Virus record (IMG/VR): IMGVR_UViG_3300025598_000122 | Span: 1 to 29,748 of that record | DNA from: a virus | Reading direction: 5' to 3' (one strand) | Length of the DNA stretch: 29,748 nt | In this document: positions 26,750-29,242 of the stretch, piece by piece | Layout of the letters: every line of letters begins with the position of its first letter | Numbering within the stretch: the first letter of the stretch is position 1 | Notes under the pieces: model-generated | Told to the model about the DNA's origin: nothing | Seen by the model: the letters and a program-made list of their open reading frames with translations, nothing else | The model's database searches: none | Program-made: the position numbers and the translations under genes

Positions 26750-27238
26750 ATGGCTAACATCACATACGATGAAGCCATTGAGGCTTTCGAATACCGAGAC
26801 GGTGAATTGTTTTGGAAGATCAAGCCTCACGGCGCTGTTCAAGCTGGCGATAAAGTTGGTGGCGTTCGGAACGATGGCTACGTCATATTTGGGTATAAGC
26901 AAAAACGCCATAGAGCGCACCGTATCATATTTTTAATGCACAACGGCTTTATGCCAGATGACATAGATCATATCGACGGTAATCGAAGTAACAACAAAAT
27001 TGAAAACCTACGCAGCGCGACAAGATGTCAAAATCAATATAACAAAAAAATGATGAAGAATAACAAATCTGGCGTTCGCTGTGTTTCTTGGGATAATTCT
27101 AAAAATAAGTGGGCTGTTTATGTTAATTTTGAAAGAAAAAGAAAATTTTATGGTTATTTTGAAGATTTAGAAATCGCTGCTTTGGTGGCTAATGAAGTAA
27201 GAGATAAGTTACACGGCGAATTTGCTAGGGCAGCGTAG
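26750..27238 (+). CDS. Free-standing HNH homing endonuclease with AP2 domain
   Basis: The protein has an HNH_3-type nuclease core with H57-R-I-I-F-L-M-H, then D-D-I-D-H74-I-D-G-N78 and N82-K-I-E-N-L-R. An AP2-like DNA-binding domain follows (about 107-155, S-G-V-R-C-V-S-W ... W-A-V-Y-V ... F-Y-G-Y-F). This pairing is typical of mobile homing endonucleases in phage genomes, which cut a DNA site in related phages and spread by repair. It sits with no functional link between a tail fibre gene and a small conserved gene, and its 3' half is more AT-rich than its neighbours, both signs of insertion. AAAGG lies about nine bases before the ATG. Confidence 0.92.
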   Translation: MANITYDEAIEAFEYRDGELFWKIKPHGAVQAGDKVGGVRNDGYVIFGYKQKRHRAHRIIFLMHNGFMPDDIDHIDGNRSNNKIENLRSATRCQNQYNKKMMKNNKSGVRCVSWDNSKNKWAVYVNFERKRKFYGYFEDLEIAALVANEVRDKLHGEFARAA

Positions 27239-27247
27239 GAGATAATA

Positions 27248-27586
27248 ATGGCAAATACTTATCAATGGCGCATTAATCAGCTTGAATGTTATCCGCAACA
27301 CAACAATCACACGGATGTAGTCTTTACGGTGCATTGGGATAGGGTATCTACTGATGGCACTTACAATGCTCGTATATACGGAAGCCAATCCGTAACGCTA
27401 GATCCAGACGCTCCATTCACAGCCTATGCCGATCTGACAGAAGCACAGGTTATCGGTTGGCTGGAAGATGCGTTTGGCGCTGAGACATTAGCTGCACAAA
27501 TCGCTTCGCTTAATAAGCAGATTGAGGATCAGATCAATCCGCCTGTGGTTCGCCCGCAGCTTCCTTGGGTAGCGCCAGCGACTTAA
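27248..27586 (+). CDS. DUF7936-like phage protein, 112 aa
   Basis: The protein contains a pattern of aromatic and acidic residues (Y-Q-W-R-I-N near 5-10, V-V-F-T-V-H-W-D-R-V near 24-33, A-Y-A-D-L-T-E-A-Q-V-I-G-W near 59-71) that I associate with DUF7936, a family of small proteins found near phage fibre genes, of unknown function. The short Q-I-A-S-L-N-K-Q-I-E helix (about 84-93) precedes a Pro-rich end. It has a GGAG ribosome site about seven bases before its ATG and is followed by the structured RNA region at 27594-27651. A fibre-assembly role is only a guess. Confidence 0.65.
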   Translation: MANTYQWRINQLECYPQHNNHTDVVFTVHWDRVSTDGTYNARIYGSQSVTLDPDAPFTAYADLTEAQVIGWLEDAFGAETLAAQIASLNKQIEDQINPPVVRPQLPWVAPAT

Positions 27587-27593
27587 CAGAATT

Positions 27594-27651
27594 GGCGCGG
27601 GAGTAGCTCGTCCGGCCCGCGTCAAACTCCAACCGGACGGGTGCTTTGGAG
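27594..27651 (+). ncRNA. Putative kissing-hairpin RNA element hiding a ribosome site
   Basis: Hairpin A pairs 27594-27601 with 27616-27623 (8 pairs, one G-T) around a 14-base loop. After AAA, hairpin C pairs CTCCAA (27627-27632) with TTGGAG (27646-27651) around a 13-base loop. The loop of A contains CGTCCGG (27609-27615) and the loop of C contains CCGGACG (27633-27639), which are perfectly complementary. They can form a 7-bp kissing contact or, instead, a single B hairpin that opens both others. The TTGGAG strand carries the GGAG ribosome site for the ATG at 27659. The pairing is seen in sequence; function is inference. Confidence 0.6.
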
Positions 27652-27658
27652 AAGCAAA

Positions 27659-27820
27659 ATGGAAAATCAGAAAGTATCAATTAGTTTCAATATAAATGAA
27701 CTAAATTACGTTATGTCTGCTCTTGGTCGTATGCCATATGTAGAAGTTACGCCATTAATTGATTTGATTCGCGAACAAGCAAAATCACAGATAGAACCCG
27801 CCGCGCCTGCGGCTGAATAG
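27659..27820 (+). CDS. Small conserved phage protein, 53 aa
   Basis: The protein reads M-E-N-Q-K-V-S-I-S-F-N-I-N-E-L-N-Y and then A-L-G-R-M-P-Y-V-E-V-T-P-L-I-D-L-I-R. This matches in outline a small protein seen in many phages, with a beta strand, an N-E-x-N helix and a G-x-x-P-Y turn before a helix, to my memory. Its function is not known to me. The ATG is preceded by GGAG with seven bases between; that GGAG is locked in the stem of the structured element just upstream. The C-terminus is Pro/Ala rich. The element and gene together suggest it is translationally controlled. Confidence 0.75.
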   Translation: MENQKVSISFNINELNYVMSALGRMPYVEVTPLIDLIREQAKSQIEPAAPAAE

Positions 27821-27828
27821 GCATTTAA

Positions 27829-29028
27829 ATGCTTGCAAGTCGCCCGTTAGCTTCAGCGCCATTAGCTTCGGGCGGCATAGTCTATGTAATATCTACGGCT
27901 TCGGCGTCTGCTTCTGGCTCTGCGTCCGTCTCTGGCGCGGGCGTTGCGTTAGACGTAGCAACTGCTAGCGCGTCTGGAACGTCAACCACTAGCGCCACAT
28001 TAGCCGCTACAGCCTCGCTAACAGCAACCGCTTTTGGTTCTGCATCAGCAACCGCAACTGGCGCTTCTACATGGGCCGCTAGCGCTTCTGCAACTGCCTT
28101 TGCGTCAATATATGGCTTAGGGGCGTCAACATGGTCGGCTAGCTTTACGGCTTCTGGTTCTGCCGTTGTTGTTGCTTATCCAACTGTTGTTGGCTCTGCG
28201 TTCGGCATAGCGTCAATAAACGGTTCATTAGCTGCAATATCGTCAGCAATTGCGATTGCTAACGGCTCTGCTTCGGTTTCCGGCGCTGGAGCTGCTACAG
28301 ACGCAACAACTGGAACCGCTACCGCATCCGGCTCCGCAAGCGCTGTTGGCGCGGCGTCATGGGCGGCTTTAGCTTTAGCTTCTGGCGTCGGCGCTGCTTC
28401 TGGCGTTGGAGCATCTAAAGCTGCCGCCGTTTCATCTGCTACCGGCTCCGCATCTGTTACTGGTAGTTTTACAACAATATGGTCAACTAGTTGTTCTGCA
28501 AGCGGCACATCTAGCGTTGTTGGGTATATCGGCGCACTAACGCTTTTTGCATTTGCGCCTGACTACGCTTTTGCTGGCTCGACACTAGCAAACGATGTTT
28601 TGGCGGCTAGCGTTCTTGCTGGCTCAAACTATATAACAGTTCCTAATGGCGCTTGTATTGTTAATGGTGTTGGCGGTTCGATAAATGCTGCTACTGGCGT
28701 AGCAAATGGTTCTGCTAATAATATTTTAGCTATCGGCGCTTTTTGTCTTGACCCGCATTTAAATAAATTAATTAAAGCTACAGCTAGAAATAAAACAAAT
28801 TTATTAGCACAATTTAACCCGACACCAAAAACACTTGTGTCTGGTAAATCTAAATCAATAACAGCTTTGTCAAAAAATGTTGTTTTGCTTGTTCCTATAA
28901 ATGGAGGGGCGTTAGGTTCTTATACATTAGCCAGCCAGCCAATTACTGCCTATGAAAAACAATCATCTAATAATTTAGCTGTCGCACAAGCTAAAACTCC
29001 GACATCACTATCAAGGCACGTTTGCTAA
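27829..29028 (+). CDS. Ala/Ser-rich repeat virion protein, probable tail-surface protein
   Basis: The N-terminus M-L-A-S-R-P-L-A-S-A-P-L-A-S resembles conserved starts of phage tail proteins. Residues 20-235 are almost entirely Ala, Ser, Gly, Thr and Val, with recurring G-S-A-S-V-S-G-A-G and A-S-T/W-x-A-S units. They look like a fibrous stalk with small side chains. From about 240 to 399 the sequence is mixed, ending H-V-C, and may be a globular head. No enzyme motif is visible. It closes the fibre module before the lysis genes. The ribosome site is weak (TAGG). It could bind the host surface, serve as structural spacer or be a low-complexity decoy; none is established. Confidence 0.55.
   Translation: MLASRPLASAPLASGGIVYVISTASASASGSASVSGAGVALDVATASASGTSTTSATLAATASLTATAFGSASATATGASTWAASASATAFASIYGLGASTWSASFTASGSAVVVAYPTVVGSAFGIASINGSLAAISSAIAIANGSASVSGAGAATDATTGTATASGSASAVGAASWAALALASGVGAASGVGASKAAAVSSATGSASVTGSFTTIWSTSCSASGTSSVVGYIGALTLFAFAPDYAFAGSTLANDVLAASVLAGSNYITVPNGACIVNGVGGSINAATGVANGSANNILAIGAFCLDPHLNKLIKATARNKTNLLAQFNPTPKTLVSGKSKSITALSKNVVLLVPINGGALGSYTLASQPITAYEKQSSNNLAVAQAKTPTSLSRHVC
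27895..28530 (+). repeat. Degenerate coding repeats (Ala/Ser/Gly)
   Basis: Copies of the G-S-A-S-V-S-G-A-G unit start at 27916 and 28264 with clearly different codons, and three A-S-T/W-type units recur near 28065, 28120 and 28350. The low DNA similarity with retained amino-acid pattern suggests selection at the protein level. Confidence 0.55.
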
Positions 29029-29150: not shown

Positions 29151-29242
29151 TGCACGATCTCATGCTCGCAATGCTGCTGGCGCAGTTTGTGTTTTATCTC
29201 GCATTTCTCGAAAGCCTAGAATGGGTCAAAGCAAATGCCTAA
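29150..29242 (+). CDS. Tiny putative membrane peptide, 30 aa
   Basis: A 30-residue ORF, M-H-D-L-M-L-A-M-L-L-A-Q-F-V-F-Y-L-A-F-L, followed by a polar E-S-L-E-W-V-K tail. It is predicted to span the membrane once. It is joined to its upstream gene by TAATG and overlaps the lysozyme gene by eight bases. A GGGG about ten bases before the ATG could serve as ribosome site. Small single-span peptides next to an endolysin are holin candidates; the sequence alone cannot prove that. Confidence 0.45.
   Translation: MHDLMLAMLLAQFVFYLAFLESLEWVKANA

Follow-up and report, generated by a model that had tools for sequence, protein, structure and literature searches.

A covariation-supported H-type pseudoknot at the ribosome-binding site of a small phage gene

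The intergenic element and its neighbouring genes

The window analysed here, an IMG/VR virus record, spans 29,748 bases and is assigned to a tailed phage by its terminase, portal and major head protein genes. Its portal shares 28-43% identity with counterparts that include those of Bradyrhizobium, Rhizobium and Myxococcus Mx8 phages. A gene encoding a DUF7936 protein (27248-27586, plus strand; Pfam PF25590, E=1.9e-29) is followed on the same strand by an ORF of 53 amino acids (27659-27820) with homologues in other phages (MW202825, MW202483). The 53-aa protein had no PHROG or Pfam match, and a direct search of viral contigs with this protein returned nothing. The 72 bases between the DUF7936 stop codon (27584-27586) and the ATG at 27659 hold the whole element described below (27592-27655), its first helix being separated from the stop codon by 5 nt. 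An HNH endonuclease gene (26750-27238) adjoins this cassette in the window, and an HNH-like ORF follows the small ORF downstream of the element in L160. The window also contains a 399-aa ORF (27829-29028) that is rich in Ala and Ser towards its N terminus and matched no family; it immediately precedes a Phage_lysozyme2 gene at 29235.

The element, on the plus strand throughout, comprises three helices. The 5' strand of P1 (TTGGCGCGGG, 27592-27601) forms 10 bp with the 3' strand (CCCGCGTCAA, 27616-27625). The loop between them consists of L1 (AGTA, 27602-27605) and the 5' strand of S2 (GCTCGTCCGG, 27606-27615), which abuts the P1 3' strand directly, leaving zero nt at the P1/S2 junction. L3 (ACTCCAA, 27626-27632) then leads to the S2 3' strand (CCGGACGGGT, 27633-27642), which pairs with 27606-27615; the resulting 10 bp include two G.U pairs. 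The element ends with the hairpin P3 (GCTT-TGGAG-AAGC, 27643-27655), a feature absent from the initial annotation, whose stem measures 4-5 bp and whose loop carries the Shine-Dalgarno sequence GGAG (27648-27651) 7 nt upstream of the ATG. A conserved CTCC in L3 (27627-27630) is able to pair with this Shine-Dalgarno; in pseudoknot-free folds, CTCCAA (27627-27632) and TTGGAG (27646-27651) form a competing stem, P2.

Relatives of the element and covariation of its helices

Searching with the DUF7936 protein retrieved 80 viral contigs, in 17 of which DUF7936 and a small ORF were separated by a similar stretch; these 17 instances were found via the protein, without an RNA search. The remaining members came from pattern searches, together with L255, a bacterial MAG contig titled Methylocystaceae, giving a family of 26 distinct sequences that otherwise derive from IMG/VR phage contigs. 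L255 was the sole member among 56 matches in a pattern scan of genome contigs. A covariance search of 782 genomes of its order and class returned only L255 and a false positive, L280, which was rejected for lacking CTCC and the Shine-Dalgarno hairpin; four weak covariance-model matches (L015, L210, L218 and L219) were not accepted as members either. Within the tested loci the model recovered the members present, L117 and L281 included despite their divergence. An initial, stringent DNA pattern gave no matches. When the window region and two member sequences were compared by BLAST with 50,697 phage records, no real match emerged; eight weak matches within actinobacteriophage coding genes were dismissed. 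Most members are closely related and many are near-identical; true divergence is limited to the window, L281, L117 and L160, and the independent lineages, judged by eye, number perhaps six to eight.

Across 24 aligned sequences, 98.6% of P1 and 100% of S2 positions were paired (99.1% of cells overall), and 15 of 24 pairs had changed on both sides. These two-sided changes affected 7 of the 9 scored pairs in P1 and 8 of the 10 in S2. None of 500 shuffles reached any of five covariation measures, and sliding the partner strand by 1-3 columns as a control lowered pairing to 28-45%. Pair 7 of S2, for example, was U-A in 10 members, C-G in 9 and G-C in 7. Pairing was kept in L117, L160 and L281 despite clearly different P1 sequences, and in L117 and L281 despite largely different S2 sequences. 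P3 was paired in 26/26 members with two compensatory pairs, C-G to G-C and A-U to U-A, in the window and L281. The alignment thus strongly supports P1 and S2, and modestly P3. The initial annotation had pointed to a 7-bp complement between two hairpin loops and named covariation across related phages as a check: the complement (CGTCCGG/CCGGACG, 27609-27615 and 27633-27639) is the core of S2 and behaves as a genuine conserved helix.

As in the classical H-type fold, the loop of the P1 hairpin pairs with a strand outside it and both helices covary, so that, judged from the alignment, P1 and S2 almost certainly coexist as an H-type pseudoknot. Spans were taken from ideal A-form helices, and the calculation was tested against the established deep-groove minimum of 6-7 bp. 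L1, which crosses the S2 deep groove and begins with AG or GG in every member (n=26), has 4-7 nt in these members for the 20.7 Å of a 10-bp S2, and L3 has about 7 nt for about 40 Å over a 9-bp P1; members with an 11-12-bp P1 would require fraying for L3 to span the groove.

An origin in chance hairpins or as a side effect of coding sequence would be extremely improbable for this arrangement. Nested folding of the window alone gives an ordinary result (z = -0.32), as such an origin would have it; ordinary folding misses the element because the decisive helix is a pseudoknot. A sequence-independent scan for the architecture (P1 of at least 8 bp, S2 of 10 bp, zero nt between them) found exactly one match in the window; 100 dinucleotide-shuffled windows gave none. 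The covariation refutes a chance origin, and the element is intergenic in all contexts.

The compact H-type fold adjoining a Shine-Dalgarno and the conserved loop nucleotides also recall small-pseudoknot metabolite or ion riboswitches such as preQ1 or SAM-II. We regard this as very improbable: among the Rfam 15 covariance models no riboswitch reached its gathering score, the weak Glutamine-II match remaining far below it (11 bits versus 33), S2 is predicted to be very stable already without a ligand, and no metabolic gene lies downstream. No other Rfam 15 family reached its gathering threshold, in line with the earlier remark that the arrangement was not familiar as a named RNA family. A SymR match was on the opposite strand and far below its gathering score, and ribozymes (pistol, hammerhead) were dropped, having no Rfam matches. 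We found no paper describing the element in the open-access literature; a description not indexed there may exist. The element represents an unlisted RNA family of about 65 nt, supported by covariation and present in dozens of environmental phage contigs.

Initiation of the small gene and the competing stem P2

The element invariably followed a stop codon and preceded a small-ORF start. Overlap of stop and start codons (TAATG) is the usual sign of translational coupling, and it was found in most relatives without the element, the small-gene Shine-Dalgarno lying within the DUF7936 coding sequence. In relatives with the element, the small gene starts 72-78 nt downstream of the stop codon and the Shine-Dalgarno is inside P3. 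Since relatives without it mostly overlap start with stop, the element would supply an independent start site; the simplest reading is that of a self-contained initiation site, and the element probably controls ribosome start on the small gene. Natural relatives with and without the element before homologous genes make a clean, small test system for pseudoknot gating of a ribosome site.

The upstream gene differs in L160, L117 and L281, so the element occurs independently of DUF7936. In L117 the downstream gene differs as well, the element preceding an unrelated, membrane-like ORF of 40 amino acids. This setting (L117:9829-9909, minus strand; also L136) is the most different one; the 40-aa ORF adjoins an amidase-endolysin-like ORF, and a role as a lysis gene is possible there. 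The element precedes at least two small-protein groups without detectable similarity, the profiles of A2 and A3 matching with 3% probability. The neighbours of the DUF7936/element/small-ORF cassette vary by phage and include scaffold/coat, methyltransferase-like, glycosyltransferase-like and tail-like genes; these different neighbours suggest that the cassette moves as a unit. It is conceivable, if doubtful, that phages carry the element as a portable RNA module with its own ribosome site, which on insertion between coupled genes breaks their coupling and places the second gene under a pseudoknot-gated start answering an infection signal. Tandem DUF7936-like copies occur in L028, L030, L031 and L060-L064, the second copy overlapping or directly following the first.

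P2 and P3 are mutually exclusive because both use the same bases. Their energies were mostly close (P2, -1.0 to -7.6 kcal/mol; P3, -3.5 to -6.2 kcal/mol). The state combining pseudoknot and P3 was estimated to be more stable than the best nested fold by 6.7-12.6 kcal/mol in 25/25 parsed members, a figure that depends on one flat pseudoknot penalty (9.6). In ideal A-form geometry, closing P2 over the full 10-bp S2 needs about 42 Å (41.8 Å), for which the P2 spacer of 4-5 nt in 12/26 members, including the window, is too short. By this rough check, P2 is not expected to fit alongside a complete 10-bp S2 in the window. The energy estimate favours pseudoknot plus P3 and the geometry speaks against P2 with a full S2, which leads us to regard the pseudoknot as the default state and P2 as its competitor.

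These results alter the picture given by the initial annotation, in which two hairpins toggled or formed a kissing complex. P1 stays closed and coexists with S2, and a kissing complex of two intact hairpins appears geometrically unlikely, by the same estimate of about 42 Å against the 3-4-nt spacer of the window. The annotated stem burying the Shine-Dalgarno corresponds to P2: CTCC and GGAG are indeed complementary, and their stem competes with the loop pairing for the ribosome site. P2 shows zero covariation and is retained as a competing pairing only. When released from P2, the GGAG would be placed in the loop of P3 and not be free as had been supposed.

The reading we favour, with roughly even confidence, is that the RNA of 27592-27655 is a cis-acting translation-initiation pseudoknot that presents the Shine-Dalgarno in P3, P2 being the off state. 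The pseudoknot would form by default and lock the 3' strand of S2, which would keep the anti-Shine-Dalgarno CTCC from holding the Shine-Dalgarno. With the Shine-Dalgarno presented in P3, ribosomes would not depend on the upstream gene to start. Should a bound factor or co-transcriptional kinetics keep S2 from forming or undo it, CTCC would pair with the Shine-Dalgarno in P2 and initiation would be off. The off state may not matter, since P2 lacks covariation and is weaker in L041, where one pair is broken, and in L117. Covariation of P2 is not expected, because GGAG must also pair with 16S rRNA.

The element could instead be a static insulator or stability element, a rigid roadblock to ribosome read-on or nucleases that shields the downstream messenger without switching, P3 merely carrying the Shine-Dalgarno; we consider this possible, at low confidence. 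The very stable pseudoknot predicted in every member, its position a few nucleotides after the stop codon and the missing covariation in P2 would all be accommodated. Left unexplained are the exact placement of the Shine-Dalgarno in the P3 loop and the CTCC kept in L3 of 26/26 members, including those found via DUF7936 without CTCC as a search key; conservation of CTCC and GGAGAAG is partly imposed by the search patterns.

Comparison with known pseudoknots and other elements in the relatives

A presented Shine-Dalgarno gated by a pseudoknot, as favoured above, may work like the knots of gene 32, rpsO, tisB, timP and repZ. Among phages, the classic translational pseudoknot is that of the T4 gene 32 leader. 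The leaders of gene 32 in T4, T2 and RB69 hold an H-type pseudoknot with coaxial stems that serves translational autorepression; it sits 67 nt ahead of the start codon as the nucleation site for gp32, which binds over an unstructured A+U-rich stretch (PMC3014915). A 2010 review described the T4 knot as perhaps the sole viral case in translational autoregulation (PMC3014915). The present element is likewise a phage H-type pseudoknot in the leader of a phage gene. Unlike gene 32, the knot adjoins a Shine-Dalgarno hairpin 7 nt from the ATG, the leader is G+C-rich and without an A+U-rich stretch, and the 53-aa product is not SSB-like; the locus does not belong with T4-type gene 32.

The gene 32 precedent, together with the conserved AG/GG of L1 and the Shine-Dalgarno in a hairpin loop, raises the prospect of a protein operator, in which a phage or host RNA-binding protein on the pseudoknot, the GGAG loop or both would repress or activate the small gene, after the model of T4 gp32, ribosomal protein S15 or a binder of GGA hairpins such as CsrA. 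This seems rather unlikely to us: no candidate protein is at hand, and the differing downstream products (A2 and A3, and the 40-aa ORF of L117) make simple autoregulation unlikely. The same diversity renders doubtful the feedback by the downstream protein that had been proposed initially.

In E. coli rpsO, which encodes S15, a pseudoknot at the ribosome-binding site decides between two folds. The present element shares the placement of its knot at the ribosome-binding site; rpsO differs as a host ribosomal-protein gene and has no sequence or Rfam match to the element. PMC11295053 cites the rpsO pseudoknot as one that requires S1 for 30S recruitment. Translation-activating knots are described as rare, and in timP and tisB a pseudoknot serves or activates translation of a small protein, the timP Shine-Dalgarno region being otherwise sequestered (PMC11295053). 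The link between a pseudoknot and small-protein translation is common to these systems and ours; timP and tisB are bacterial type I toxin messengers under antisense RNA, whereas the phage small protein is not known as a toxin. Closest in layout is repZ of IncI-alpha ColIb-P9, where a loop finds its pairing partner immediately 5' of the Shine-Dalgarno and an upstream ORF ends at the structure. The repZ knot reportedly forms only after translation of the leader peptide opens a stem. The knot described here differs in being predicted to form unaided and in having a phage small gene as its target. The repZ pseudoknot of Asano and Mizobuchi (1998) is cited in PMC10724649.

Two further structures were seen in the relatives. 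Near position 5000 of L042 and in its relatives, a strong hairpin (GGGGGCTTCGGCCCC) followed by a T-rich stretch lies ahead of the Shine-Dalgarno of the next gene and looks like an intrinsic terminator. A nearly invariant 22-nt element, ACCGACURGCCGGAWAGCUAGGU, absent from the window and in L037 without an Rfam match at gathering threshold, occurs at L037:3068-3089, L003:3751-3772 and about 60 other loci. It lies just before a scaffold-like gene that precedes a coat gene, including in the GenBank podovirus MW202483, and could fold as a tiny pseudoknot through CCG/CGG and CURGC/GCUAG.
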